A stretch of DNA of 64,000 bases from Lepidurus packardi (Eukaryota; Arthropoda; Branchiopoda; Notostraca; Triopsidae): positions 343,501 to 407,500 of the forward strand of contig JAKZAN010000003.1 in the NCBI GenBank assembly GCA_023053545.1. The letters run 5' to 3'. A program made the translations under genes and the position numbers. Below are positions 23,610 through 58,255 of the stretch, in pieces. The notes under the pieces were generated by a model. The model did no database searches. It saw only the letters and a program-made list of their open reading frames with translations, and was not told the DNA's origin. Position 1 is the first letter of the stretch; each line of letters starts with the position of its first letter.

Positions 23610-26600
23610 TTATATCTTTTTTAGGCAAGGTTGACACAGGTATAGTAAATCTTCAAGATCATCAGGCAACAAATCTAAAAGCTTTAAATGAGGCTGCACC
23701 TTATTGGCACAGTATGCATGATGCCACGTCCCGCATTCACTACAAGCAACCCAATTGTCTACACCAATCTCACTAGTAGGAGCATTTCTTTGCAAGCATA
23801 AATAACAGAATTGAGCAACCGTATTTCTCAGGACATAGCCAGGATCTGCAAACCCATACTTTTCATAAACGTCAGCTCCTTTGCTATTGTACGGTTTCCG
23901 AGTTGAATAAAATTCTCTTTGGGGTAAGAGCCTGGAATTAGGACCAACTTTTATAACAGACTGGAATGTCTTTTGAATGATGGCTTCATCAGACCTTTTG
24001 CCTATCATAGCTACACTGTGCTGAGCAGAATCCATTTCTAAAAGCTGCTGATAAGTAAGACCTCGTTGAAGCGACCTTGCAACACAGGCCATGTTGTCCG
24101 TGATTCGTTTTTCTAATGCCGAACGGGTTTCTCTTCCCTTGGCTAGTCTCTCGTTTGGAATAATATAACTTTCCTTACAATCTACAATAGCTGAATTTTT
24201 AACGTGGGAGTGCCGCAAATGGTCAGTCAAATCGGGTACAACTTTGTGAATATGTTTGCACACAAACCAGTTTTCATAAAAATCGTAGCAATCGCAATTA
24301 AAAACATCTCTGCAAGCTCCGCAATAACTGCATTTATTAATACAAGCACAAAGTGTGTCAGAAAACCTAGTGACGGTGTAGTACCTATCCTCCGACCTAC
24401 TAGAATTCACTGTCCAGCATTTGTTTTCCTCTAAAACAGTTACATCTGTGTCCTTAATTTCCCTCGATTCCTTATGTCTCCTGTTAGTTTCGATTATGGT
24501 ATTGGTACTTAGGCCTCTTTCGGTCAACATGGATTCGTTATGTTCCCTAATTTCTACATGATCATGCATAATCTGAAGTAAACGGTCAAGTCTTCTGTTG
24601 AACTTTCCATCCAAAAATACGTGCTTCAAATCCCGGTGAAAAGACTCTAATACCATATTAGTTCTCACTGGCAAATTGTGACAGTTGAAACCCGCCCACT
24701 CATTGACTCGGGGCGCATAGTAGTCAAGAAAATACTTCGCAAAAAGAGGAAGATGTTCTTCCGCGTAGGTTATAAAACACGTAAGCTTATTCGCAAATTT
24801 ACTTTCGTCTCTCTCGCGACTCACCACCCTAAGTAAGCTGAAAATTTGACAGGTTATAACCTGAGAATCTTCTTCATGACTAGTGACGGAACCGCGAAGC
24901 TGCTCCAGTCTTTTCTTCCAAGCCCTTTCCACATGCCAAATGCAAATTCTCCTCGTAGTAGAAGAAGTGTCAAAGACATCGCTCCAAGCTAGCCAAAACT
25001 GATCAGCCATATCGCTCATAAACTCCGTTGTTCTAATTTCACCGACTTTTTCTTTAAGTTTCATAAAAAAGAGACGATATACTTCCCTATGTTCCCTGTC
25101 ACTTATTAGAAAAGCAACAGGATATCCAGCCCGAGCTTTATTCAAAACCATAACCGTTGTCAAGACAAACTGGTACTGGTTAACCTGATACGTGCTGTCT
25201 ATGCAAATACACTGGCTGCCGTACTCAAGTAATGCTTTCATTTGCGGTTCATACATGATGCCAAGCGCAAAGTTGGCCACCTGCAATTGACTTTCTTCGT
25301 CTATAATGCCCTGGTTCTTATAAAAGAATACTGGATTATCTAGCCTCACTGCCATCTCTTCAACCCACAAATCAACGCTTTCGTGATCTACAGAGTTTTT
25401 CCGGAAGGGATTTGGAATTTTGTTTTCGACATTATGAAGATCCTTCATAGTAATAGCATTATCACGACAAGGAGGCTCATCTAAATTCTCTCTCAAAATG
25501 CTTTGTATGATTTTACGTTTGGAGATACCGACAGTAAGTTTCTGTGCTATTACCTCTTGGGTTTCTTTGTGCAGACGGCATCTACCAGCAAGACGATCAT
25601 GAGGCACATGTGACCGACAGAACGTTACGTCACAATTACCTGACAAATGACTGATGCGACAAGTGATAAAACCAATACAAGAAACTCCTGTACGACAAGA
25701 GCCTAGACGTTTGAGGGCACGTTTACCCATGCTACGATTTTTGTAAGAAAAGGACCGATTACACATATAAGTCGTCGTAGTGAAGCTTGTGTGACGACGA
25801 GCTCCCCTTCGGCTAACGAAAGAAACTCCGTCAGCTTTTTCTAACTCTGTTTTCCAGAGTTCAAAAGTATTTCTGTCATGAAATGTGCTGCTTTCAATTT
25901 TACAATGGAAGCTATGCTTAATCCTAACATGTCCAACGTATTCTACCAGCTTTTTCACTGCTAAGCCACAATACCAACAAATTATCCGTTTAGTGTTCTG
26001 TTTTACTGTTCGTGAATCAAATTTTCGATCACCCGAATCGCTATCTTCGGAAAATATGACAGCACTGTCACTGGCGTCTTGTTCGGAGTCCTGGGATTTC
26101 GTTTCCTTACTATCATCAGATTCAGCCCTGCTTAATAGTGGCTCAACTTCTTCTTCTATCTCAAGTTCTTCTGCTATATTAGGTACTGGGTCGGACTGCG
26201 AAGAACCTGACTTTTCTTCAGGTAGTAATGAGACAGAGACTATTCTCTCGTTCGAAGTTTTACTGCTAACAGGACCTTTAATTTCTGTTTTTAAAGAACT
26301 ATGTACCACCTTAATACGACGGTCAAGCGTAAACTTCCTAGCAAACCTTTTTCCACACTTACTGCAAACATTCTTTGCTTCTTTAAGCATGCTGCAGCTT
26401 GCGTTGTGACGCTCTAAGTTAAATACCCTCGTGAACTCGGCTTTGCATTTTTTGCACCTTAACTCAGCTTGATTCTGTTGTTGTTCAATTTGAGAATCAA
26501 CAGAACATGTGAGAATATCACTGACTGACCTACGTTTAGGCAAACTAGAATCTCCTTTACGTTTTGTTTCGGTATTCCTTTCTTTACTGTTGGGATTCTC

Positions 26601-27246
26601 GAAATCACTGTCCGACTCTTGCTTTATTTCTCCAACAGGTCTAGCAACGACCAGATCAATAACGCTAACTTCATCTGACTTATTTGCTGTTTTACCTTTT
26701 GTCCTCGACAATTTAGCACCTTTGCGACTAGCTGCAATTTTGAAACTGCGATCTGCAAACTGACCAGAATACGGACTAGAACTGACCACCTTTGGGCAAA
26801 GTGGTACAAAATGTTTCGGCTGCCAACCACACGCAAGAACTGACCGCCCTTCTTTCTTCTCCAAATGTGCTTCCACGTTTCCACCACACCATAAAATTCG
26901 GAGAATTTCTGGGCTGTTGCAACCAATAGGGACAAAATTCATATTGAAATGCAAGGCAGGGTGATGCGTACTACTTGAGGGAACAACGACAACTGGATAA
27001 ACTGACTCTACGGTCCTATGACAAACATTGGCCAAGGCAGCGAAAGACACTAATGACGCGTATTGCCCTGACTTTGCCTGCTCCATCGCATAAATAACTA
27101 TAATCTTTTGCGCGTTCCCGATATCAGTGTTTGGGAACTCCAGACCAGGAAACAGAAAGCGCGTCATATAAATGCCAGTAAAATTCACCATGTTAGCAAT
27201 TTGGTTGTCACTGACATAACCAAGACCTGGATCTGAATAAAGCTGA
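23610..27246 (-). CDS. MULE-type transposase-like protein with C2H2, SWIM and PHD fingers
   Basis: Uninterrupted frame of over 1200 codons. In order: an N-terminal region, two C2H2 fingers (about residues 283-326, CKKCKAEFTRVF and CSKCGKRFARKF), an acidic Ser-rich linker, a FAR1/FLYWCH-like part (FHDRNTFELWKTELEK, SCRTGVSCIGF), a MULE core with D in CICIDSTYQVNQYQF (about 700), D in FMSDMADQFWLAW (about 764) and E in NMVLESFHRDLKHV (about 886), a SWIM-type finger (CDCYDFYENWFVCKHIH) and a C-terminal C4HC3 PHD finger (CYLCLQRN...CSECGTWHHAYC...CQPC). The 22 codons before LYSDPG read through a simple repeat; an AG acceptor at 27248-27247 suggests an earlier exon, not found. Resembles TE-derived MULE proteins of arthropods; activity unknown. 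Confidence 0.85.
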
Positions 27247-27440
27247 CTAAAAGTAAAACACATAATAAGTAAAACATGAGTAACATGAGTAACATGAGTA
27301 AAACACATAATAATTTAAATGCAGAATAATTTAAAATAATTAGAAATAAAGAATAATTGAAGATACAGAAAAATTTAAAACGAAATAGTTCAAAAATAAT
27401 TTCTTGTACCATAGTACAAGAAAAAAACCTGCCCATGAAG
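27247..27440 (-). repeat. SINE-like repeat, left piece (split by LINE-1)
   Basis: A/T-rich tail containing TAATTTAAATGCAG and GAATAATTGAAGATACAG, also present twice at 37160-37350, plus three tandem copies of ATGAGTAACA (27276-27305) and a 9-bp hairpin around TTCTTGTACCATAGTACAAGAA (about 27400). Ends CTGCCCATGAAG, where LINE-1 starts; the matching tRNA-like part follows LINE-1 at 36927. Confidence 0.7.
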
Positions 27441-27687
27441 AGCCCATTTTGAGGCAGACGTGCAGACGTGCAGACGTGATTCCGTGTGCTCTCGAACTTT
27501 TGCCTTTTCTGTACGATACGAGTCAGTAAAAGTCTCTAAAACATAGTTCTCCTGTTGAGTTAAGTGTTCTTGTTAAAATTTTCATAAGTGTTGGATCCCT
27601 GACAGTGTTGGATTGCCTGTGGTTAATTTGTTACAATTCTCATAAGTGCTGGTCTGCCTGTGGCTGTTTTGCTGACGGGGCCTGCCT

Positions 27688-29025
27688 ATGGAGGGGGCGG
27701 TCCCCGAACAAACTCGAAAGAAAACAATGGAAAACGTTTGCTCTCAAGCGCATGAACAGGCTACCAAAACTACAGAAATTGTTCGTTCCCAAACGCAAGA
27801 CCAGGCCAACATGGTTCGATGTATCACCTGTCAAAACACGTTTGTAAAAGATCATCCTGCTGCGAAGAACTGCAAGAGTTGTCGCCAGCAAAAAACGGCC
27901 GTATCGAGCGGTGAACCTTTGCGAAAACGTTCGGAGTCAGATCCATCATTACCTCTTCAATTGCAGGAATTTCAAAAGGGTCTAAAAGAAAGAGTCAGCT
28001 GTCTGGAAGCTAAGGTCGATACCTTACTTCCCCAAGCGGAATTAGTCCCAATTCTGATAGACGAAATTCGACTTCTGAGAGAGGAGCTGGCCAAACGTCC
28101 TCAAGCTCCTCATGAGCTAGTGACCAGGCACTGGCCTAATCAAGCACCAGCCACCCCTCAATTAGGCAAGGATAATCAAGATGATGATGGAGAGTTGGAA
28201 ACGCTCTTTATACAGCAAGAAGATGTTAAAAAGAGAGCCAGCAAGGTTCCCCGTATGGGTTTACTTAAAATGATTGACGACGACTTCAGGGCTGCTAAGA
28301 TCCCAAATCCTGTACTGGCACACCAAACACAAAGCGGGAATATCAAACTCGTCTTTAAGAGTCACGATGAAAAGCTTGAAGCGGAACCGTTACTCAAGAA
28401 AGTAGTCTTACCCACACTTGGCCCGGTAAGAATGATCTCAAGAAAATTGAACTTAAGCGTAGTAGTACACCAACTACCTAGGGACCAGAATTACCAAGAA
28501 ATTTGTCAACATCTGTCCGAAAAAAATTCAAGTCTGAACGTCGTATTCAATGCAGAAAAAGTTAAATGGCTAAATCCCAGCAGTAAGAAGGCCTATGGGT
28601 CTCTATTGGTCTCGTGTGACTGCATTGAGAAGAAGGCAAATCTGCTGCGGGCTGGAATGCTCTTTGCCTTTAATAGGCGAATTAAAGTAGAAGACAACAA
28701 CCCCCCTCAGTATCATCAATGCTTTCGCTGTCAAGCATACGGCCACGTAGCCGCGGTATGCCGAGATAAAGAACCAACTTGTGGAAAATGTGCCCAAAAA
28801 CATGACACAAGGAAATGCTTGGAGGATACCAAAAAATGTGTGAATTGCAAAGGTGAACACTTTGCTTTTGACGCAAGTTGCCCTATTAGACAGAAAGAGA
28901 AGAAGGAGAGAGAACAAAAATCGCACAATGCGCGCTCAGGCGCTGGTAACTATCCTAGTTTATCCACGAACCAGCGTGTAGAAAAATCGTCGAACGCAGT
29001 TGCACCTATCTCTCAGCAGGATTGA
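27688..29025 (+). CDS. LINE-1 ORF1 protein (gag-like, CCHC knuckles)
   Basis: 445 codons. An N-terminal Cys motif (CITCQNTFVKDHPAAKNCKSC), a probable coiled coil (about residues 90-150), a conserved middle (DDDGELETLFIQQED and PVRMISRKLNLSVVVHQLP) and zinc knuckles CFRCQAYGHVAAVC, CGKCAQKHDTRKC and CVNCKGEHFAFDASC. ORF1 proteins bind LINE RNA. Clearly homologous to LINE-2 ORF1 although the ORF2 proteins differ. Stop TGA 29023-29025 is in the same frame as ORF2. Confidence 0.92.
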   Translation: MEGAVPEQTRKKTMENVCSQAHEQATKTTEIVRSQTQDQANMVRCITCQNTFVKDHPAAKNCKSCRQQKTAVSSGEPLRKRSESDPSLPLQLQEFQKGLKERVSCLEAKVDTLLPQAELVPILIDEIRLLREELAKRPQAPHELVTRHWPNQAPATPQLGKDNQDDDGELETLFIQQEDVKKRASKVPRMGLLKMIDDDFRAAKIPNPVLAHQTQSGNIKLVFKSHDEKLEAEPLLKKVVLPTLGPVRMISRKLNLSVVVHQLPRDQNYQEICQHLSEKNSSLNVVFNAEKVKWLNPSSKKAYGSLLVSCDCIEKKANLLRAGMLFAFNRRIKVEDNNPPQYHQCFRCQAYGHVAAVCRDKEPTCGKCAQKHDTRKCLEDTKKCVNCKGEHFAFDASCPIRQKEKKEREQKSHNARSGAGNYPSLSTNQRVEKSSNAVAPISQQD

Positions 29026-30692
29026 CATAACTCCAGGGCAAAGCCTTCCAGATTAAAGACCAAGAACCGGGATTTAAAATGTATGTTCTTTAACTCTGAT
29101 TCTCTTTTAAACAAAATTGAAGAAACGAGACTACTTGCACAATCTGAAGAGCCAGACATTATAGCAATTGTGGAGGTTAAACCTAAAAACTGCAGGTTCA
29201 AACCTACAGCTGCTGAATTATCAATCAGTGGATATAACACGCTTGACATCAATTTGGATAGTGACCTTGGGCGTGGAGTTATTTGTTATAGTAAAAACAA
29301 TTTGAGAGTGTACCCCGTACCCCAACGTGAATCTGTGCCCCAAGAAATGTTATGGTTACGAATCAGTCATTTAAATGGAATGAATACGATCTTCGGTGTG
29401 TGTTATAGAAGTCCTTACAGCACCGCAGAAAATGATAAGGAGATCTGCGCTGAAATTTCGGAAATGACAGCTTCCCCAAATCAAAATATAGTCATAGTGG
29501 GTGACTTCAATCTCCCTAAAGCTAATTGGCAACACCGTTATACACACTCGCAACAAATTAATCCTGAAAACGTATTTCTTAATTGTTTCAACAATAACTT
29601 CCTTGACCAATTAATTGAGGAACCCACTCGAGTCCGTGGAACAAACAAACCGAGCTTGCTCGATCTTCTACTTGTAAGTAACCCCGAGGTTGTGACATAT
29701 GTTGAAGTCCAGTCGCCAATCGGAAAATCGGATCATGCTGTAATAACTTTTATCCTGCAAACTAACCGACTGGAAAAGAAGAATATACAACGGCCGAACT
29801 ACTATAAAGGCAACTACCAGGAGATAAGAAGAGTCCTTTCCAAAGTCAACTGGGATCAAGCATTTCAAGACTTAGAATCCATGGATGATCTGTACAGCAA
29901 GTTCCTGCGCACAGTAAAATCTGTGGAATATTGCTTCATACCGCCTAGACGACATAGTAGTAGAGCAGCAGTTTCTAGGGAAACATTGAAATTAATAGCC
30001 GAAAAAAGGGATGCCTGGAATGCCTTCAAATCAAACAAAGATGACTCTTCATTGGAGTTAAATTACCGACGCTTCCGCAATAAAGTGCGCAAAGCCACCA
30101 GACAGGAAGTAAACAGAAGAGAAAGTCTACTGGCAAAAAATTTAAAAGACAATCCCAAAATCTTCTGGAAACATGTCAATGCGAAAAGAAAGAACGGAAC
30201 CATTATACCTCCATTACTAGATGAAACCACGAGACTTACTGTTTCTGAACCGATTGAAAAGGCGAATGTACTAAACCGACACTTCTCTGTTGTATTTACG
30301 CGCGAAATAGATATAACAGAGGTTGATTCTTGTGTCTCGGAAGATCCTTTTCCCCCACTCAATATTTGCGCGTCAATGGTTTTAGAGAAACTTAACAGGT
30401 TGGATACATCCAAGTCCCCTGGCCCGGACATGTTACACCCTAAAGTCCTCAAGGAAGCTGCTGCTGTCCTAGTCAAACCGCTTACTTTCATTTATCGAAA
30501 ATCCATTTCCTCTGGCCAACTCCCGACAATATGGAATAGTGCTGTTGTTACCCCAATCTTTAAATCCGGGAAACGTGACTTACCCTCAAATTATAGGCCT
30601 ATTAGTTTAACTTGTGTAACGTGCAAAATCCTCGAATCAATTATTGCTGACCACATTTTGACCGAATTTAGACACAGAAAAATATTATCAGA
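29026..30692 (+). pseudogene. LINE-1 ORF2, 5' part: endonuclease and start of RT
   Basis: The frame is open from the ORF1 stop; the first ATG is at 29083, but homology (DLKCMFFNSDSLLNKIEE) starts just upstream. AP endonuclease motifs: IVEVKPKN, VGDFNLPKANW and KSDHAVITF. The RT start shows DTSKSPGPDMLHPKVLKE, FKSGKRDLPSNYRPISLT and KILESII, typical of CR1/L2-type LINEs. Interrupted after the codon for Ser in KILS by LINE-2; the remainder resumes at 35648. Confidence 0.9.
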
Positions 30693-30887
30693 AAGGGTCG
30701 TTGAGACTGGCGGGAAGCTCGGTCGTTTTTGAAGTGCGCTCCTGTTTTTGTAATTCTATTGGTGTACCCAAAGTTTTGTTTAGGTAGTTCTCGTTACCAG
30801 GTTTAGTTAAGTGCTTGTTGCACCTTTGTGGAATTTTTCATAACGTTTATTTGCATATTTGTGCATGAACGAGGACCTCTTAAGTGA

Positions 30888-32285
30888 TTGTTTTGGGCTT
30901 TGCCCAGTGACAATATGTTAAGGACACCTGAAAACTCGCCCGTTAAAGGGGGGATCCGGTTTTCTCAACCAGGCCCTTCCCGTGTGCTGGAAAACATTGA
31001 AATAGACTCGCCCAACCCAACAGTCACATCACAACCCCAAGTGAAATGCCAAACCTGTGGTGACCTGTTTCTAAAAGACAAACCTGCAGCCAAGAACTGC
31101 AAACCATGTCGTGACAAAAAAGCGACTGCAAACCCAATTCTGGGTCAGAAACGTCCCCTACCCTCCCCCCCAAATGATCAGACGTATCGCAGAAGGTGTT
31201 TTTCAATCGAAGATCCAACCCAAGTATCTACCATGGATGTCATCCTGTCGACACTTCGATCACTTAAAGAGAGCAACGAGAATCTAATCCAGGAAGTCAT
31301 GGCATTAAAAGCGGAAGTTATTGGACTCCGCAAGGATCTACAGGAAGAACACATGAAACCTTCCTTCTCAACTACGCAAATTAACGCCACAAACCAAGTC
31401 TCCTCGTCTCCGGCTCAAACAAGCACTTGGACACAAGTTGTCCAAAGGAAGAGAACCAAACCATCAATCAAGGTGACAAGCACCCCAAGTGTCACCCCTG
31501 CCAGCCACGATTCAAGCGCTCAAGACGACGATGGTCTAACGTTATTCATTCAGCAAGAAGACGAGACTAAGAGAAACGCGGTCATTCCCAGGAAAGATCT
31601 TCTGAAGACAATCGAAGATGACCTGTCCAAAGCATACCCAAAAGCACCGAAACCTGTCCTAGTAGGAAAGACCAGAACGAACAGACTCGCACTCACCTAC
31701 AAGAGTATAGAGGAAAAAACAACTTCTGAAAACATTTTCGAATCGGCGACATTGCCAAATTTGGGTCCGGTAAAGGTAGTAAAGAGGCAACCAAACCTGA
31801 CGATGATTATTCACCAGCTACCAAAGGACGAGAGTCTACCAGAAATATGCAAACACATCTCCGAAAAAAACTCAAACCTGGAAGTCGTCTTCCAAGCGGA
31901 TCAAGCGAAATGGCTAAACCCGGATGTAAAAAAAGCATACGGTTCCATCAAGTATACTTGTAAATCAGAAGAAGAGAAGAAACGGTTGATAGAAGTGGGA
32001 GCCATCTTTGCTTTCAACCGCATAGTACAAGTGGAAAACGTCAAACACCCCCAGATCCTTCAGTGCTATAATTGTCAAGCCTATGGCCACATGTCAGCGT
32101 CTTGCCGCGAGAAGACTCCAACCTGCGGAAAATGTGCCAAAAACCACGACACAAGGAAATGCACAGAGGCAATGAAGAAATGTGCAAATTGCAAAGACCA
32201 ACACTACGCTTTTGACTCAAACTGTCCTACCCGACTGAAGGAAGTAGAAGCAAAGGACAAGAAGTCCGCGACAAAGAGCAAGTAG
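30888..32285 (+). CDS. LINE-2 ORF1 protein (gag-like, CCHC knuckles)
   Basis: 465 codons; the likely start is an ATG in this frame (first at about 30915, MLRTPENSPVKGG). N-terminal Cys motif CQTCGDLFLKDKPAAKNCKPC, then a coiled-coil stretch, DDDGLTLFIQQED, PVKVVKRQPNLTMIIHQLP, and knuckles CYNCQAYGHMSASC, CGKCAKNHDTRKC and CANCKDQHYAFDSNC. Ends with TAG 32283-32285, one codon before the ORF2 ATG and in the same frame, so ORF2 may be made by stop readthrough or reinitiation. Confidence 0.93.
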   Translation: MFWALPSDNMLRTPENSPVKGGIRFSQPGPSRVLENIEIDSPNPTVTSQPQVKCQTCGDLFLKDKPAAKNCKPCRDKKATANPILGQKRPLPSPPNDQTYRRRCFSIEDPTQVSTMDVILSTLRSLKESNENLIQEVMALKAEVIGLRKDLQEEHMKPSFSTTQINATNQVSSSPAQTSTWTQVVQRKRTKPSIKVTSTPSVTPASHDSSAQDDDGLTLFIQQEDETKRNAVIPRKDLLKTIEDDLSKAYPKAPKPVLVGKTRTNRLALTYKSIEEKTTSENIFESATLPNLGPVKVVKRQPNLTMIIHQLPKDESLPEICKHISEKNSNLEVVFQADQAKWLNPDVKKAYGSIKYTCKSEEEKKRLIEVGAIFAFNRIVQVENVKHPQILQCYNCQAYGHMSASCREKTPTCGKCAKNHDTRKCTEAMKKCANCKDQHYAFDSNCPTRLKEVEAKDKKSATKSK

Positions 32286-32288
32286 CTT

Positions 32289-35200
32289 ATGGGAATAGTG
32301 CGACTGATTGTACAGAATATCCGGAAAAGTACATCCCAACTTAACGAAGTGGCAAGAGAGGCCAACAGTGAGGATATAACCCTGGTTATTGTTCTAGAAC
32401 CACCACAGCACTATACTCAATCACACATCCTAGGTTTTGACGTCATTACAACATCTCTTGCTTATGAGGGAGTAATGCTCCTTCGTAAGCCAGACAGCCC
32501 TTTCCATGTCATTGAAATAAAGGAACTGTACGCAAAAATCAGACTGGGAAATCAACAAGGCCGAGCAATATCCCTACTCGCAATTTACAGAAGACATACT
32601 GTTAACACGACGTCGCTTCTTCAAGAAGCCTGGGGAAAGTACAATCAACAGGACCCAGTAATCATCACAGGAGATTTCAATGCTCATCATTGGCAGTGGG
32701 AGGATAAAACACCAGACTCATCGGGAACACAACTATATGACTTCGCTACAGAACAGCACTGGGACTTGATAAACCAATGGAATGTCCCAACTTTCCACAA
32801 CGAACGTGGACATAAATCGACAATCGATCTCACGTGGTGTTCCCCTCAATTAACTGCAATCACAGACTGGCACGTCCTTGATGAAGCAAAATACTACAAC
32901 GAATCCGACCACAAAGCCATAGTGATTTCTCTAAACCTCATACACAACACCAACAAAGTATCGAACAAAAGCTGGCACTACCAAAAGGCCAACTGGGAGA
33001 AAGCACGCCATGACACGGCTTTGGGACTAAAAAACTCTAAAAACTCCTTTACAAAGCTCTCCAACACACAGGACATCGATGCAGCTGCTTATAAACTGAC
33101 AACTATCATACAAAATGCTATGAACCAAAACATACCCACCTTTACCAGTAAAAACCGGAATAATCCCTGGTGGAACTTAGAACTAGCGGAACTCCGTAAA
33201 CAAGCGGCGAAAGCACTACGCGCTTATCGAATTTATGGAGGCACAAGAAGAGAGACCCTATGGAAAGCGTCAAGAAATCACTACAGGACCAAGACTAGAG
33301 AGCGTCGGGACAAGTACTGGGCAGACAAGATGGCTACCACCGAGAATAAGGTCATCTGGAATCTTAATCGTACATTACGTAACGAGAACAGCAAGTCACT
33401 TGTTCAGCAACTTAAACAGGAGGATGGTACGCCATTTGATAACCCAGTCGCTAGGCTCAATTTCATCGCTGAACACCTTATTGTCGGAGAAATGTGGGAC
33501 GCCCCAACAAAAACATACCAAGGTCCCCGTTGTAAGCATCATTTCACGAGATCTACCCAATGTGAAATCTCCTCAGACTTCACTATAGAAGAAATTTCCA
33601 ATATCTTGAACAACTTACATTCAAAAAAAGCCGCTGGTATGGATGGTATCCAAGCGATCGTGCTTCAGGAAATTTGGACGACCATTTCTGCAACCGTGGT
33701 CAAAATCTTTAACGCCTCTCTCACCTTTGGTCACTATCCCTCTTTGTGGAAGATAGCGAAAGTACTGCCCTTACCGAAACCCGGCAAGAAGGACTACAGC
33801 TCAATAAAAAGTTTCCGGCCAATCGCCCTCTTACCTATTCTTGGAAAAATTCTTGAAAAAGCAGTAGCTTCCAGACTGCAAACTTTCCTTGAAAACAACA
33901 ACAAGCTGTCGGATATGCAATGGGGTTTTAGACCAGGGAGAGGTACAACAGATGCCCTCATGGAACTCAGTAACTCCGTACTAAACAGCTTTGACAGAGG
34001 CAAAGTTCAAACAGCCCTCCTACTTGATATTAAAGGAGCATTTGACAACGTAGTACATCAAAAACTGGTTGCCGAAATGAAGAAACTAAAGGTGCCCTCA
34101 CAGATTGTCAAGTGGATACAGAGCTTCCTCCAAGACAGGAGAGCATTCGTCGTACACGGAACGGAAAACAGTCAAACATATGCCATAAAAAAAGGTGTAC
34201 CGCAAGGATCTCCAATATCACCTATCATCTTTTTGTTATATATCAACGGGGCGCTAAGTGTAATAAACCGGAAACGAATTCACATCGGTGCCTTCGCCGA
34301 TGATTTGCTCCTCCACACTTCGGGTTCGTCCAGCGAATGGAACACAAGACTTTTAGCGAACAATCTATGCTCACTAGAAAAATGGGGAAGGAAGTTTGAG
34401 CTAGAATTCTCCAGGGACAAGACCGAGTTGATACACTTCTCAAGAAAAAGAACAGAAGAGGTTGCCCCGCTAATATGGGGAACGACAACTATCTACCCAA
34501 AGGAGGCAGTGAGATACCTGGGCGTAATCTATGATAACAGGCTCACATGGCAAAGCCATATTTCCCTACTAGCAGCTCAATGTAATAACACCCTTCAGAG
34601 GATCCACCGGTTGATCAAAATTTCGAAGTCCATCACATGCTCCCAAGTACGCACTCTCTTCCATGCAACTATCGTTTCAAAGTTGACCTATGGATACCCA
34701 GCTTGGTGCAATGCCTCGGAAACCAGGCTTCGGCCTATCACCCAAATATACCGAAGAGGCCTTCTGCTAATTTCAGGAGCACTTCCTTCAACCCCAACCA
34801 TAGCCCTAGAGGTTGATACAGGCGTCCTACCATTAAACTTAAAGTTAAAATGGACACTTCTACGACACTATGCGCATAAGAACTGGCAGAAATGGCCAAT
34901 ACAGGTAGAAACCCAGAGACACAAGATGTATGCATCCTGTGAAGAAAGGACAAGATGCCTGGCCAGGGCAATCTGGTCAAGCCCACCCGCAACCCAAAAA
35001 GAAGCCCTACTAGAAATTAAAAAAGCGCTTATTAAAACGTGGCAAAATGGATGGGAATCAACTAATAGCCCTTTAAAAGATTTGAATGCTGTTCCATCTC
35101 TTCATGGAATCATCAACTCAAGACTACCAAGAAATACCATTGCAACGATTATACAGGTCCGATCCACGCACTTCCCAACATTGAGCTATTTGTATAGAAT

Positions 35201-35531
35201 TGGCCGTTCGCCCACTAAGCTTTGCCCATGCCCGGAAATGGTTATCCAAGACCTTCACCACGTTTTTATACATTGTCGTTGGTTAAACAAGTGCAGAGCG
35301 AAGTTGATTAGAGCCCACAGTTCCCTCAAACTGCACTTTAAACCTCAGAACTTTCTCATGGACCCAAAACTATTCCCAGCGGTGAAACTTTTCCTTAACG
35401 AGGCCAAACAGACTTTCAATTCAGCAACCAGCCAAGGACGAGAAGCTCACCCAATCATTTCAGTACTTTTTCTACCCCCCTTACACCCTTCTCCCTTGAC
35501 CCCCATCCCATCCATCCAACCCTGTTATTAG
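32289..35531 (+). CDS. LINE-2 ORF2: AP endonuclease and reverse transcriptase
   Basis: 1080 codons without a break. Endonuclease: TGDFNAHHWQWED (about residue 127) and ESDHKAIVIS (about 206). RT: SKKAAGMDGIQAIVLQE, LPKPGKKDYSSIKSFRPIAL, TALLLDIKGAFDNVVH (about 578), KKGVPQGSPISPIIF and the catalytic FADDLLLH (about 669). A C-terminal Cys-His motif CPCPEMVIQDLHHVFIHC lies near 978. No RNase H seen. The motif set fits the Jockey/R1/LOA side of the LINE tree rather than CR1; clade not fixed. It would nick target DNA and copy the LINE RNA in the nucleus. Confidence 0.95.
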   Translation: MGIVRLIVQNIRKSTSQLNEVAREANSEDITLVIVLEPPQHYTQSHILGFDVITTSLAYEGVMLLRKPDSPFHVIEIKELYAKIRLGNQQGRAISLLAIYRRHTVNTTSLLQEAWGKYNQQDPVIITGDFNAHHWQWEDKTPDSSGTQLYDFATEQHWDLINQWNVPTFHNERGHKSTIDLTWCSPQLTAITDWHVLDEAKYYNESDHKAIVISLNLIHNTNKVSNKSWHYQKANWEKARHDTALGLKNSKNSFTKLSNTQDIDAAAYKLTTIIQNAMNQNIPTFTSKNRNNPWWNLELAELRKQAAKALRAYRIYGGTRRETLWKASRNHYRTKTRERRDKYWADKMATTENKVIWNLNRTLRNENSKSLVQQLKQEDGTPFDNPVARLNFIAEHLIVGEMWDAPTKTYQGPRCKHHFTRSTQCEISSDFTIEEISNILNNLHSKKAAGMDGIQAIVLQEIWTTISATVVKIFNASLTFGHYPSLWKIAKVLPLPKPGKKDYSSIKSFRPIALLPILGKILEKAVASRLQTFLENNNKLSDMQWGFRPGRGTTDALMELSNSVLNSFDRGKVQTALLLDIKGAFDNVVHQKLVAEMKKLKVPSQIVKWIQSFLQDRRAFVVHGTENSQTYAIKKGVPQGSPISPIIFLLYINGALSVINRKRIHIGAFADDLLLHTSGSSSEWNTRLLANNLCSLEKWGRKFELEFSRDKTELIHFSRKRTEEVAPLIWGTTTIYPKEAVRYLGVIYDNRLTWQSHISLLAAQCNNTLQRIHRLIKISKSITCSQVRTLFHATIVSKLTYGYPAWCNASETRLRPITQIYRRGLLLISGALPSTPTIALEVDTGVLPLNLKLKWTLLRHYAHKNWQKWPIQVETQRHKMYASCEERTRCLARAIWSSPPATQKEALLEIKKALIKTWQNGWESTNSPLKDLNAVPSLHGIINSRLPRNTIATIIQVRSTHFPTLSYLYRIGRSPTKLCPCPEMVIQDLHHVFIHCRWLNKCRAKLIRAHSSLKLHFKPQNFLMDPKLFPAVKLFLNEAKQTFNSATSQGREAHPIISVLFLPPLHPSPLTPIPSIQPCY

Positions 35532-35647
35532 TATCTGTTTTTATAATATAATATCTTGCAAGGATACGACAAATACATAGTTTGGCAACAGGCTTTCAAG
35601 CCTACGCCGGCTTTAAATTGAAAAAAAAAAAAAAAAATATTATCAGA

Positions 35648-36866
35648 TAAACAGTTCGGATTTTTACCTGGACGCTCCGCTGAAAGTCAACTTTTACTAG
35701 CTGTCGAGAACTGGAAAAAGAATGCGGATAAGGGGCTCCAAACTGATGTTATATATCTGGACCTTAAAAAGGCGTTCGACAAAGTACCCCATGGTAGACT
35801 TATTCAAAAATTAGTTGACTACGGTCTCGGTCCTAGTACCTCACCCACCCTGACTAAATGGATTAAAAGTTTCTTAACGAATCGGACGCAGTCAGTTTGT
35901 GTTGAAGGTGAAGTCAGTGACTTAGTGATAGATGTCCTAAGCGGAGTTCCTCAGGGCTCGGTTCTGGGTCCGTTACTATTTAACATATATATAAATGACC
36001 TAACAGACAAAATTGAGTCGACAGTCTTTCTTTACGCGGATGATACCAAAATTAGTAACGTAATTAACTGCCCGGAGGATATGATTAAGCTCCAAGATGA
36101 CATTAAAAGTATTGAGCTTTGGATGGAGAAATGGCTGATGGAATTGAACATCCCAAAGTGTCACCAACTGAGGATTGGAAATGAATCTGTCACAAGTAGT
36201 TATGTCCTGGGTGGCGAAGTAATTGCCAAGACCGACTGTGAACGGGATCTTGGAGTCCTGATTGACACAAAACTTAATTTTCACCAACATTACGCGAGCA
36301 TTGCGGCTAAAGCAACGAGAGTAGCTGGACTAATTAGACGAAACTTCACCTGTGTGGATAAAACAATGTTGTCCACGCTGTATAAAACGCTCGTTAGACC
36401 TATTCTTGAATACGGCCACTGTGTAACGCGCCCGTTCTTCAACAGGGACCTAGAAGCCCTAGAAAAAGTTCAAAGGAGAATAACCAAATTTCCTGGAAAT
36501 CTTCGTCACCTCTCCTATACAGATAGACTCAAAGCCTTGAACCTGCCAACTCTGGCATATAGGTTTCTACGGGGTGACCTGATAGAAGCGTTTAAATTGT
36601 GTCACGCCTATTATGAAAATGTGTCCGCCGAACAAATATTGTGCTTCAACCAAAGCAATTGTCGTGGCCATATCCTAAAACTTAAGACAGAACGATTCCT
36701 CAAAGATGTAGGCCGCTGGACCTTCCAAAACCGAATCGTAGATGAATGGAATAGCCTACCAGAAAAAGTGATCGAATCCTCCTCCTCACAGACATTTAAA
36801 AAATCACTAGATGAGCATTTTGGCTCAAAAATGTTTGACCCGTTACAATTTCGTAGAGATAAATAG
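35648..36866 (+). pseudogene. LINE-1 ORF2, 3' part: RT core and C-terminus
   Basis: Continues in frame after LINE-2: KQFGFLPGRSAESQLLLAVE, VIYLDLKKAFDKVPHGRL, GVPQGSVLGPLLFNIYINDL, the catalytic FLYADDTKI (about 36030) and LYKTLVRPILEYGHC, ending with DEHFGSKMFDPLQFRRDK and TAG. No stop occurs between 35648 and 36866, so LINE-1 ORF2 was open when LINE-2 entered. The LVRPILEYG block is typical of CR1/L2-type LINEs. Confidence 0.92.
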
Positions 36867-36926
36867 TTACAAAGAGGCTTTATAAAGCCTTATATGTTGC
36901 AATAAATAATAATAATAATAATAATA

Positions 36927-37140
36927 ATGAAGGGAATCGAACCCTCTCCACCGTTGTGTCAGTAGTTGCCCCTGCCCACTAGACCAATTCCTCCATACTG
37001 TCAGACATGCGCCCGTAGATTGTATTCGAAAATCCTTACACTTTTTGAGTAAACTCATAACGCTACGGCACCTCCGGTGGTACCACTTACACATTAACTC
37101 AGACGGCACCTCCGGTAATACAGAATAATTTTTCACATAA
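36927..37140 (-). repeat. SINE-like repeat copy A with tRNA-like head
   Basis: On the minus strand, a tRNA-like part (about 36999-36927) with A box TGGTCTAGTGGGCA and a perfect B box GGTTCGATTCC. Beyond it lies a conserved block with AACGCTACGGCACCTCCGG. It cannot fold as a complete tRNA (no matching acceptor arm), so it is called tRNA-derived rather than a tRNA gene. The A/T-rich tail of this copy is on the other side of LINE-1. Confidence 0.65.
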
Positions 37141-53505: not shown

Positions 53506-55973
53506 CAGCGGTCGGCAACCTACGGCCCGCGTGCTGAATCCGGCCCGCCAGCCCATTTTATCCGGCCCGCGACCCACGGGTGAAATATTACATGCATCCG
53601 GCCCGCGGTACCTTATAAACTAATATATAAGTTTTGACTACGTCGTTCCTTTAAAAAGATTTTCGCAAAACATCTGAATCCAACCCTAGTCTAGTCTGCT
53701 CAGCACAGTGTAGCCCGTGAAGCCTACTATTAGCATTTTGAACTGATTTCGCTGTTCCAGTTCCACTTTTAGCTTGACGCTGCCACGTTCGCGTTCTGCG
53801 GCTATTCATAGTGGATTCGCCTCGTTGTGCTTCACTTTCGTGATAGTAAAGTAGCCAACTTTCTGTGATACTGTAGCAAATTCTTCCACTTTCTGGGAAA
53901 ATGTCAGCAAAGCGTCGAAAAGTTGATACCGAATGTCACAATTTCCAAGAGTGCTGGACTGATCAATACTTCTTTGTCCAGCATTTCGGAAAACCTATAT
54001 GTCTCATTTGCCAGGCAAGTGTTGCCGTTCATAAAGAGTTCAACATCAAGCGACACTACGAGGCTAATCATTCTAACCACGCTGAATTTACCGGTCAACT
54101 AAGAAAAGACGAAATTGCTAAACTCAGTCGTAGTCTGCAAAAGCAAAGCTTGGTATTTAAGAATCAGAACTCAGAATCTGAGAAAAACACACTTGCGAGT
54201 TTTGCTGTCTCAAAACTTATAGCAGAGGAAATGAAACCCTTCACAGATGGTGATTTTGTAAAAAAGTGTTTGATGGCCGTTGTAAACATAGTATGTCCGG
54301 AGAAAAAGGATCTTTTTTCAAATGTAAGCCTTTCGGCGAGAACCGTTACGAGGCGAATTGAAGAAATATCAGCTGACCTGAAAAGCAATTTAAGAAAGAG
54401 TTGCAAGGAATTTCAGTTCTTCTCAATAGCCCTTGATGAGAGCACTGATGCCACTGATACTGCACAGCTTGCAGTATTTATACGCGGAGTTACTGAAACC
54501 TTCGAAATTGTCGAGGAATTCCTAAAACTGGTACCTATGAAGGGTACTACCAAAGGAGAGGACATTCTGGCAGCATTGCTTCAGTGTTTTTCGAATCTCG
54601 ATTTGGACTTGACAAAGCTTGTGTCCGTAACAACCGATGGAGCTCCGGCTATGGTCGGACAGAATAAAGGCGTCGTGGCCTTACTTAGGAAACATATGGA
54701 AGGCCTCGGAATCGTTCACGATGTCACAAAGATACACTGCATCATACACCAGGAAGCACTGTGTGCCAAAACATCGAATCTGAATGAAGTAATGGACGTG
54801 GCTGTAAAAACGGTCAATGTAATCTTGTCTCGGGGTTTAAATCATCGTCAATTTCGAACACTTTTGTCCGAATCGGAGAATGAATATGGAGACTTACTTT
54901 ATTACTGTGATGTTCGTTGGCTTAGTCGTGGTGCTATGCTAGGAAGAGTGTATTCCCTCCGTGAAGAAATAGCTGGCTTTCTTGAGAGCAAAAACATGAA
55001 CGCCAAAGAATTTCGGGATCAAACGTGGCTTTCAAGCCTCGCGTTTCTAGTCGACCTAACGAGGCATTTGAACAGCCTGAATTTGCAGCTTCAAGGAAAA
55101 AATCAACTGATCCATGAAATGTGGAGCCACGTTACTGCATTCGAAACAAAGCTTCGATTGTGGGAAAACCAGCTTGAGAAGTCTAATTATTCGCATTTTC
55201 CTACACTCGCGGAAAGAAACCCAAAAGAAAGCTGCGAATTTGTGGCAGTGATCCGCACTCTAAAAAGCGAGTTTGCCTCACGTTTTGCTGATCTCCGATC
55301 ACACGTAGTCGATTTCAGGATGTTTAGTACACCTTTTGATGTCGACGTAAATAACGTTCCGGATAATATTCAGATGGAGCTCATTGAGTTGCAATGTAAT
55401 GATGTGTTGAAATCAAAATTCAATGCAGGTGGTGTACCACTAACAGATTTCTACAAGAAGTATCTTCTTGAGTCCGGGAGTCACCCGAACTTAACTAATT
55501 ACGCCAAAAGGATGGCATCAATGTTCGGTAGCACTTACGTGTGTGAGCAATTGTTTTCAAAAATGAAACACACAAAAAATCATTTGAGAAATCGAATTAC
55601 TGACGAGCATTTGGGCGACGTACTGCACTTGGCATCGTCTGGCATGTCGTGTGATATGAAGAAACTTTCAGCTGCCAAACAGCACCAAGCGTCACATTAA
55701 TTCTAGTTCAACTAAGTCAAATCAATGTTAAAACGAATATCGAACCCATTATAAGAGTAATGCAATGCACTGAACTTATTGTCTCTTTAAATTGAAAATA
55801 CAGACAATTCTTCCAATAAAGCACATTTCGGATTAAATAAACATCTTTCCTGATCCTCCAAAATTTTATTACGGCTGAATTTTGAATTAGTAGTTCAAAG
55901 GATTAATCCGGCCCGCCACTACCCTCCATGCATTTGTTCTGGCCCGCGTTGGGTAAAAGGTTGCCGACCCCTG
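53506..55973 (+). mobile_element. hAT-2: complete hAT element with 8-bp target duplication
   Basis: Ends CAGCGGTCGGCAACC (53506) and GGTTGCCGACCCCTG (to 55973), flanked by ACCTATAC at 53498-53505 and 55974-55981. 2468 bp. Both subterminal regions carry repeated CCGGCCCGC words in opposite orientation. It contains an uninterrupted transposase frame, so it is a candidate autonomous element. Confidence 0.96.
53901..55700 (+). CDS. hAT-2 transposase, intact (GTF2IRD2/ZBED-like)
   Basis: 599 codons, no break, single exon. A BED-like finger at about residues 34-60 (CLICQASVAVHKEFNIKRHY), then the RNase H-like core: FFSIALDESTDATDTAQLA (first D, about 176), VSVTTDGAPAMVGQNKGV (second D, about 246), IHCIIHQEALCAK, VRWLSRGAMLGRVYSL and a C-terminal dimerisation region with YAKRMASMFGSTYVCEQLFS (E) and KNHLRNRITDEHL. 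It would cut and paste the element in the nucleus with 8-bp duplications, as seen here. ATG at 53901 gives the family's usual length. Confidence 0.95.
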   Translation: MSAKRRKVDTECHNFQECWTDQYFFVQHFGKPICLICQASVAVHKEFNIKRHYEANHSNHAEFTGQLRKDEIAKLSRSLQKQSLVFKNQNSESEKNTLASFAVSKLIAEEMKPFTDGDFVKKCLMAVVNIVCPEKKDLFSNVSLSARTVTRRIEEISADLKSNLRKSCKEFQFFSIALDESTDATDTAQLAVFIRGVTETFEIVEEFLKLVPMKGTTKGEDILAALLQCFSNLDLDLTKLVSVTTDGAPAMVGQNKGVVALLRKHMEGLGIVHDVTKIHCIIHQEALCAKTSNLNEVMDVAVKTVNVILSRGLNHRQFRTLLSESENEYGDLLYYCDVRWLSRGAMLGRVYSLREEIAGFLESKNMNAKEFRDQTWLSSLAFLVDLTRHLNSLNLQLQGKNQLIHEMWSHVTAFETKLRLWENQLEKSNYSHFPTLAERNPKESCEFVAVIRTLKSEFASRFADLRSHVVDFRMFSTPFDVDVNNVPDNIQMELIELQCNDVLKSKFNAGGVPLTDFYKKYLLESGSHPNLTNYAKRMASMFGSTYVCEQLFSKMKHTKNHLRNRITDEHLGDVLHLASSGMSCDMKKLSAAKQHQASH

Positions 55974-56485: not shown

Positions 56486-58255
56486 CAATTTCCTACAAGG
56501 GTTGTACCACCAACTTTCAGATACATGGTGATAGCTTAGCGAGCAACGTACCCATTACACGTGGGGTGAAGCAGGGGGACCACTATCCCCACTTTTATTT
56601 AACTTGATCATCGACGAAGTCCTAAAATCTCTTCCCAAGGAGATCGGTTTTGAAATATCCGGTGAAAATTTCAATGTCCTCGCCTATGCAGACGATCTAG
56701 TGCTGGCTGCCAAAACTAGCCAAGGCTTACAGCACTTACTAGACATAACAACAACAATTCTAGCGAAAAGAGGATTTGAAACGAATCCGGAAAAATGCTC
56801 AACAATCGCCATCAAAACCGATTCAAAGAAGAAACAGACTTTCGTTGACGACCAAGAAAAATTTAAGATTGGAGGAAAAACTATACCTACCACGACATTG
56901 CAACAAACGTGGACATATTTGGGAATACCATTCAGCCAAATTGGCAGCAGCAGTTCATGCAACCCCGTCTTCATTGGGTTAATGGAGAAACTGAACAAGT
57001 CACCGCTACTTCTCCAACAACGTCTTTATGCGCTGAAATACTTCATTATAACGAGAATGACACCTGAACTGGTGCTTTCATCAATCAAAAAGACCGAATT
57101 GAAGAAGATTGATGTGGTCATAAGGAACATCTTAAGAAAATGGCTCAAACTACCTCATGACACCCCGAAATACTACTTCCATGCCCGTATTCGAGATGGT
57201 GGTCTAGGTTTCCCAATGCTTCGGTGGAGTATACCGAATCTACGTAAGAAACGATTACTAAAACTTAGTAAATCGGAAGACAAGCTAATGCGTAAGATAT
57301 CAAACGACGACATAATAACCGAAGTGCTGCAAGACATATTCTCGATGCTTGCAAACAAAACAAAGCTCACGTTTGATAGCCTACAAACGATTCAGAGCTA
57401 TTATGCGCGAAAGATATGTGGATCCATAGATGGAAAACCACTAGCCTACTCCAACAACTGCCCATCAATTAATAGCTGGATCAACGTAGACCACGCTAAG
57501 CAACCTGTCTCTATCTTTAGAGACAGTATAAAATTGAGAATAAACGCACTGACAACGGTTAGTAGAACAACCAGGGGTACTGAGCAAATCAGAAATTCTA
57601 GAGCCGGCTGTAGTGGTCCCGAAACACTCAACCACATTCTACAGATTTGTCCAAGATCACACGAGACCCGAATCCACCAGCACGATAGGGTCTCAAAACT
57701 CCTGCACCATTTCTGCAATGGCGCGGGTATATTTGCCTCGACGAGCCAAAATTTAAAACAAGTCAAGGACTAAGGAAACCTGACTTAGTAGTTTTCTTAC
57801 CAACAAACTACACAGAAGACACGAAGGAGGACATATAGAACCTCGTTAGTCCAGAGTGCGCGGAACGAATATCCTTCCCCAAAAAGCTCTACCCTTCGTC
57901 TATTTCAGGAACAGCCTTTGTCATTGACACACAAGTCGTTACCGATGATTGTGAGCGAACCAACATCGAACGACTACACCGGCTAAAGACCGAAAAATAC
58001 AAAAATATCCGCGAAATCAATAATTCTCTTCATAATCTACCCCAGGTTGACAATGTGATCCATACATCTGCAAGTTTTAACTGGCGAGGACTTATCGCGA
58101 AGGAAGCGGCTGATGACCTGCTCAAACTCGGGATCACCAAAGGCCAACTAAGAATCCTATCCTGCCTAGAAAAAGGAGTGCACGTTTGGAGGAACTTTAA
58201 TAGAACAACAAAGATGAAAACGAGTGATCCCCGACGACAACGTGAGAAAAGACAG
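56486..58255 (+). pseudogene. R2-like LINE, 5'-truncated
   Basis: Starts within the RT (YKGCTTNFQIHGDSLASN, RGVKQGD), then after a frameshift near 56590 LIIDEVLKSLPKEIGFE, the catalytic VLAYADDLVLAA (about 56680), FHARIRDGGLGFPMLRWS (about 57177), and the C-terminal Cys-His motif CSGPETLNHILQICPRSHET (about 57610-57670), followed by an endonuclease-like LRKPDLVVF after a frameshift near 57765. The Cys-His knuckle plus PD motif is the restriction-like endonuclease of R2-type elements. An in-frame TAG near 57837 adds to the decay. No 28S rDNA is seen around it. Confidence 0.88.

Follow-up and report, generated by a model that had tools for sequence, protein, structure and literature searches.

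A 64,000-nucleotide stretch of the Lepidurus packardi genome (assembly GCA_023053545.1, contig JAKZAN010000003.1, positions 343,501 to 407,500; hereafter the window, numbered from its first letter) contains two long interspersed nuclear elements (LINEs), LINE-1 and LINE-2, each with two open reading frames (ORFs). The first-pass annotation noted that the two elements have homologous ORF1s and dissimilar ORF2s, and proposed either that ORF1 had been exchanged or that it is modular and serves more than a single group. Both wordings fit our results, since the ORF2s are split with full support (100/100) and the ORF1 distances are about fourfold too short for that split. With a probability of roughly 0.78, we consider that LINE-1 is an old chimera, in which a LINE-2-type ORF1 is joined to the ORF2, the stem-loop and the (AAT)n tail of another LINE that is CR1/L2-like, and that copy-choice is its likeliest origin. 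The genome comprises 108.6 Mb in 344 contigs, from which 54 loci (L numbers below) were sampled.

The ORF1 proteins of LINE-1 and LINE-2 are 41.6% identical across 416 residues (303 bits), with 52% identity from the LFIQQED motif to the knuckles and 26% in the N-terminal half. The shared layout reported earlier, namely a CX2CX13CX2C motif, a DDDG..LFIQQED motif and three zinc knuckles at equal spacing, was confirmed in both proteins, and the knuckles follow the same patterns (CX2CX4HX4C, CX2CX3HX4C and CX2CX3HX6C). CCHC knuckles are a trait of type I (gag-like) ORF1s and number three in both, PF00098 being listed for LINE-2 only. No RNA recognition motif (RRM) preceding the knuckles was found in Pfam and no match in PDB, and the AlphaFold model of LINE-1 ORF1 (predicted local distance difference test, pLDDT, of 35) was discarded. 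The ORF2s are indeed dissimilar, with 24.6% identity across 699 amino acids (20% in the endonuclease, EN; 30% in the reverse transcriptase, RT; 15% at the C-terminus). Both encode an APE-type EN and RT domains (PF14529, PF03372 and PF00078 in LINE-1), and that of LINE-2 has a C-terminal CPC..H..HC knuckle that was read by eye. The EN of LINE-2 matches TRAS1 ORF2p at 3.9e-7, whereas LINE-1 ORF2 has no TRAS1 match at 0.01. From motifs rather than a tree with reference LINEs, we take the ORF2 of LINE-1 to be CR1/L2-like; that of LINE-2 we assume to be I/R1-group-like, again from motifs (including CPC..H..HC).

The two elements are nested. LINE-1 runs from about 27451 to 36928 and is interrupted within its RT by LINE-2, which has a poly-A and is flanked by an 11-bp target duplication, ATATTATCAGA; in five LINE-1 copies elsewhere (L009-L013), the DNA is uninterrupted at the insertion point. 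The ORF2 of LINE-1 thus does not end at 30732 but is interrupted by LINE-2 and resumes behind it, and the LVRPILEYG block, which had been placed within 27688-35531, lies in this second half. The coordinates given earlier for LINE-1 ORF1 were borne out, and those for LINE-2 ORF1 (30888-32285) were right as an open frame, although the first ATG occurs only at 30915. In LINE-1, ORF2 is open right after the TGA of ORF1 and in the same frame (29023-29028). ORF1 homology stops at residue 417 and ORF2 homology starts about residue 10 past the TGA, and the sequence limits place the join probably within 28939-29052. Near 29000-29100, where the first-pass annotation had suggested looking for it, a sharp DNA junction is no longer preserved. 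The ORF1-ORF2 boundary of LINE-2 reads TAG CTT ATG, in one frame with a single stop (32283-32291). Elsewhere, the two ORFs overlap in different frames in some families, and in L025 (1841-3475) they form one frame with no stop between them.

The LINE-1 combination of ORF1 and ORF2 is fixed in many copies and was recently mobile. Among ORF1 matches reaching the 3' end, 23 of 24 adjoin ORF2 residue 1 after one stop (hand tally), and in the remaining one ORF2 begins at residue 173. The ORF2 matches are mostly 95-100% identical, the lowest being 92% (best 47 of 593 candidates). A search with the C-terminus of LINE-1 ORF2 (129 of 129 candidates) returned the element's own family and fragments, together with one degraded relative at 62%; distant matches were at 22-27%, and the three examined (L047, L048 and L051) were all I-like. 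No relatives of LINE-1 ORF2 were found in the viral_contigs and genome_contigs collections. LINE-2 ORF2 is present in at least 9 full-length copies at 100%, the window copy included (best 43 of 1153 candidates).

Trees were computed under LG+F+R4 from 28 of 36 aligned rows, with ORF1C denoting ORF1 from LFIQQED to the end. Left out were L012 and WIN1 (same family as L010), L021, L023 and L028 (mixed or interrupted ORF2), L026 and L029 (no ORF2) and L040 (153 residues), and extra copies of families already in the alignment (L001-L009, L011, L013-L015 and L017) were not entered. In the ORF2 tree, LINE-1 and two I-like elements (L047 and L048) fell outside the clade that the 25 LINE-2-type loci form (100/100, stem 1.72). 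We take L047 and L048 to be I-like from motifs, their RNase-H-like ORF2 tail having been recognised by eye. A grouping of LINE-1 with L037/L038 in ORF2 was rejected (approximately unbiased, AU, test, 7e-4). In the ORF1C tree, LINE-1 lies among the LINE-2-types on a branch of 0.6, and the I-like stem measures 3.0. The ratio of ORF1C to ORF2 path lengths from LINE-1 to the LINE-2-types has a median of 0.26 (0.19-0.39), against 1.04 (I47) and 0.91 (I48) for the I-like controls. The paths from LINE-1 to the I-likes are 4.92/4.33 (1.14) and 4.52/4.57 (0.99). Pairs of LINE-2-types have a median ratio of 0.87 (range 0.04-1.95; 291 of 300 pairs, with an ORF2 path >0.3), and the lowest values belong to swap candidates. 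Lengthening the LINE-1 ORF1C branch from 0.57 to 3.0, with other lengths fixed, took the log-likelihood from -7939.8 to -8028.5, a cost of 88.6.

An ORF1 of the LINE-2/LINE-1 type occurs in many families (two genome searches with ORF1, best 95 of 460 and best 95 of 461 candidates). Most LINE-2-type loci were chosen through their ORF1 and the census is therefore biased; all four loci chosen by RT alone (L043-L046) carry a LINE-2-type ORF1. The first-pass annotation had considered that this ORF1 might be shared by every LINE of the species: this was so for all 25 LINE-2-type loci of the tree, but not for the I-likes, whose ORF1 is only 19-24% identical in its ORF1C half. No candidate L1-type ORF1 (PF02994) was detected in the genome by a search that was silent in every control genome too.

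Putative exchanges within the LINE-2-type clade are recent and mappable, the strong case being L025. Its 5' untranslated region (UTR) and ORF1 are 94% identical to L022 in DNA across 1605 bp, while its ORF2 groups with L031 (100/100), and the swapped groupings were rejected for both proteins. At 4-fold sites, L025 and L022 are identical at 182/191 (95%) in ORF1 and 48/165 in ORF2, where about 26% is expected by chance (Fisher 1e-42), a pattern that selection on the ORF1 protein would not produce. The L025 join is present in at least five loci including L025 (best 40 of 49 candidates), four of which match the entire 801-bp query (90-100%) and one in two pieces. The ORF1 of L025 also contains an in-frame TGA near 1838, just before the knuckles, which recurs once, in the family's copy at C6:131554.

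LINE-2 itself resembles L016 far more in its 5' part, with 71, 86 and 84% identity over ORF1 and EN, 38% in the linker, 61% in RT and 48% at the C-terminus; silent sites differ accordingly (109/213 versus 57/167, p = 0.0012), and the DNA similarity drops at about 32938. Excess similarity at the ORF1 N-terminus (ORF1N) links L016, L018, L037, LINE-2, L022 and L025, with an excess of silent identity in all five pairs from this set whose ORF1N was tested by itself (p 1e-7 to 0.003), and five negative-control pairs showed no silent-site difference (p 0.23-0.91). Along L042, identity shifts from an L038-like family (98%) to a different one (95%) at a homologous point of RT, with the frame broken. 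This switch is spanned at no fewer than two places, 14 kb apart (best 40 of 54 candidates), and no target duplication of at least 10 bp was found at the locus.

We counted unusually similar family pairs by segment in 136 pairs from 17 families (one locus each, L042 left out; z > 3.5, with the same rule for every segment). There were 12 such pairs in ORF1N, 3 in ORF1C, 2 in EN, 1 in the linker, 0 in RT and 1 at the C-terminus, and 10, 2, 1, 1, 1 and 1 in the same order without L025. Unusually low pairs numbered one each in EN, linker and C-terminus and two in RT, and came from L022/L025 and LINE-2/L016. An initial count (14, 5, 1, 1, 0 and 1) was replaced, as its 3' segments used another reference than the 5' ones. 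A 5' gradient of this kind is expected from copy-choice starting at the 3' end.

The 3' ends differ between the two groups. A two-stem hairpin just before the poly-A is common to 13 LINE-2-type families (14 loci: the window copy, L016, L018, L022, L025, L027, L034, L036, L038, L039, L042, L044, L045 and L046). In the hairpin alignment, 92.9% of cells are paired and sliding the partner lowers the score; both sides have changed in 7 of 9 pairs (3.8 in shuffles), with 20 such cells (5.6 in shuffles). The motif was located and the structure set by eye, L031, L032, L033, L035 and L043 not being included, and the energy of the LINE-2 hairpin alone is unremarkable (z -1.04). LINE-1 ends in another hairpin and then an (AAT)n tail that reaches about 36928, both unlike the LINE-2-type hairpin and poly-A. 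As the tail thus seems to go together with ORF2, ORF1 is more likely to be the incoming part.

In the mechanism that we favor, a LINE enzyme would start reverse-transcribing its own RNA from the 3' end and then jump to the RNA of another LINE (copy-choice), which would leave the new copy with its own ORF2 and tail but with a 5' part from elsewhere. At a younger age, this process may have passed the 5' UTR, ORF1 and sometimes EN blocks between LINE-2-type families with much older RT parts. More broadly, the LINE 5' end might be a circulating module, with RT lineages (ORF2 and its matching 3' hairpin) repeatedly swapping 5' ends by copy-choice and having done so at least once across a LINE split that ranks among the deepest, with LINE-1 as the product; we advance this wider proposal tentatively and give it slightly less than even odds.

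Several points weigh against the chimera and its proposed mechanism. The comparison of ORF1 and ORF2 trees, suggested earlier as a check, separated LINE-1 clearly in ORF2 but produced no strong topological conflict: ORF1C tolerates a monophyletic LINE-2-type ORF1 without LINE-1 (AU p = 0.112), and the attachment of LINE-1 in ORF1 trees is poorly supported. As the ORF1 grouping that excludes LINE-1 is not rejected, it is distance and not branching order that supports the chimeric origin of LINE-1. When the whole of ORF1 was used, placing LINE-1 on the root branch of the ORF2 phylogeny was rejected (AU 4e-5), yet constraining just the other taxa already gave 0.011, and we give this result no weight; with ORF1C, two root placements of LINE-1 gave 0.051 and 0.013, and the constraint alone 0.149. 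In a linear regression on raw identity, LINE-1 ORF1C averages 44.5% versus 33.9% predicted, with z only about 2, and the expected path ratio is seen in a single control lineage, that of the two I-like families. The silent sites of LINE-1 ORF1C are at chance versus 19 of 20 elements (p > 0.15), which implies that the exchange is old and precludes dating and mapping it. LINE-2 shows the only nominal excess among these 20 (20/42, p = 0.003 uncorrected). In ORF1N, L016 and L018 reach 0.05, and in ORF2, L016, L031, L037 and L041 lie at 0.02-0.05, all uncorrected for the 20 elements. Pooled ORF1 silent sites of LINE-1 and LINE-2 (27/58, p = 0.0006) differ from those of ORF2 (10/72; Fisher 7e-5), but 10/72 is already under chance. 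The family pairs in the polarity count are not independent, many ORF1N pairs coming from the one six-family set. Finally, the clade names (CR1/L2-like, I/R1-like and I-like) rest on motifs, and template switching is something we infer rather than observe.

That ORF1 was vertically inherited from an ancestor shared by the two LINE groups, changing slowly while ORF2 diverged, strikes us as quite improbable. Such descent is compatible with a sister relationship between LINE-1 and the LINE-2-type ORF1s as a whole, which ORF1C tolerates at the AU value given above, and gag-like ORF1s of a similar general type are described in several LINE clades (PMC4120745). However, ORF1 is not slow inside the LINE-2-type clade, and the I-likes, at similar ORF2 depth, have path ratios near one and a low ORF1C identity; descent would need a roughly fourfold slowdown limited to LINE-1 and its stem.

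Transfer without copy-choice is harder to set aside. As modeled in PMC4120745, a 5'-truncated CR1-like LINE could have landed between a LINE-2-type ORF1 and ORF2, the composite then becoming a family. The LINE-1 join does lie between ORFs, insertion of a LINE into a LINE occurs, as with LINE-2 in LINE-1 here, and copies of both groups sit in the same kind of satellite arrays. Cross-insertion would also leave foreign 5' parts, but it does not predict the 5' gradient or joins at matching protein positions, such as those in the RT of L042, at the EN end in LINE-2/L016 and in the shared ORF1 N-termini, and no remainder of an L038-type 3' half follows L042 within the locus. We regard it as somewhat unlikely. 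A LINE-2-type element that acquired a CR1-like ORF2 and tail would look identical in the end, and LINE-1 is the sole close CR1-like family found, apart from the degraded relative. But the LINE-1 5' UTR has no match in the LINE-2-type loci sampled by then (no blastn match outside its own family among the loci of other LINE families), and a distinctive 3' hairpin accompanies LINE-2-type ORF2s where LINE-1 has another, so that movement of ORF2 is unlikely. We infer that ORF1 was most likely the part that moved, most likely by copy-choice.

Table 1. Positions in the window of the parts of LINE-1 and LINE-2
Feature	Position	Strand	Basis or remark
LINE-1 5' UTR	27451-27687	+	five other copies align from 27451-27560
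LINE-1 ORF1, 445 amino acids	27688-29025	+	open frame; homologous to LINE-2-type ORF1s
N-terminal CX2CX13CX2C motif of LINE-1 ORF1	27820-27882	+	sequence
Three CCHC knuckles of LINE-1 ORF1	28720-28881	+	sequence
LINE-1 ORF1/ORF2 junction, most likely interval	28939-29052	+	limits of ORF1 and ORF2 homology
LINE-1 ORF2, first part (EN and RT start)	29026-30692	+	PF14529, PF03372; first ATG 29083
Left target-site duplication of LINE-2 insertion	30682-30692	+	sequence comparison with LINE-1 copies
LINE-2 element with poly-A	30693-35636	+	target duplication
LINE-2 block (5' UTR, ORF1, EN) with 79% DNA identity to family L016	30793-32938	+	similarity drops at about 32938, the EN end
LINE-2 ORF1	30915-32285 (open from 30888)	+	zf-CCHC PF00098 barely over cut-off
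LINE-2 ORF2 (EN, RT, CPC knuckle)	32289-35531	+	domain search; knuckle by eye
Two-stem 3' hairpin of LINE-2	35582-35610	+	kept with compensatory changes in other LINE-2-type families
Right target-site duplication of LINE-2 insertion	35637-35647	+	sequence comparison with LINE-1 copies
LINE-1 ORF2, second part (RT core, C-terminus)	35637-36866	+	PF00078 over part; joined to first part in L009-L013
LINE-1 3' hairpin	36874-36891	+	fold z -2.29; in 5 of 5 copies examined

Arrays of 20-bp satellites, with similar but not identical units, hold LINE copies of both groups. Tandem Repeats Finder delimited them in L016 (1-635 and 5537-6901) and L010 (1-1935 and 6399-7001), satellite surroundings were also seen at L053 (start of contig C2), and a crude test of 20-bp periodicity was positive for 19 LINE loci and one contig end among the 54 loci. 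This location possibly reflects an insertion preference or a shared refuge. Next to LINE-1, a 1232-amino-acid ORF with a MULE transposase domain occupies 23610-27308 on the minus strand. Another RT ORF fragment (56604-57773, PF00078), R2-like by eye, lies near a hAT-type transposase ORF (53901-55700). An Rfam scan of 27300-37000 returned nothing at the gathering threshold.

ORF1 exchange between LINEs is already known; what our analysis adds is the depth of the split and the 5' polarity. In the Jockey superfamily, the CR1 and L2 lineages have in common an ORF1 that carries RRMs and three CCHC knuckles; this is read as horizontal acquisition, and recombination and cross-insertion are proposed for this reticulation (Metcalfe and Casane 2014, PMC4120745). 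The likeness to our case is one knuckle-bearing ORF1 on different ORF2 lineages. The Jockey lineages belong to one superfamily, however, and the ORF1 described there has a PHD domain (PMC4120745), whereas here the LINE-2-type ORF2 looks, by its motifs, I/R1-group-like and a short CX2CX13CX2C stands in front. A silent-site test, a mapped recent junction and a 5' gradient are present here and are not reported in the portion of the Jockey study at hand (PMC4120745). Mouse L1 includes mosaic families with foreign 5' ends and breakpoints near the ORF2 start, for which strand switching is discussed, but there the exchange is within a single L1 lineage (PMC3600994) and here it is between ORF2s that are about 25-60% identical. 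The idea of ORF1p exchange between LINEs has itself been published, and our case, one ORF1 on distant ORF2s, is the converse of the one in that paper (PMC3905857). A narrow search of the open-access literature found no account of 5'-polarised exchange across LINE groups.

As one genome holds both L025, a young case whose junction is present, and LINE-1, an old case between groups, the rate, polarity and mechanism of exchange become testable. The naming of LINE clades relies on ORF2 (RT) phylogenies. Should ORF1 and 5' ends move independently, clade membership would not reveal the ORF1 type, the promoter or the RNA binding, and borrowing instead of point mutation may give rise to new families.

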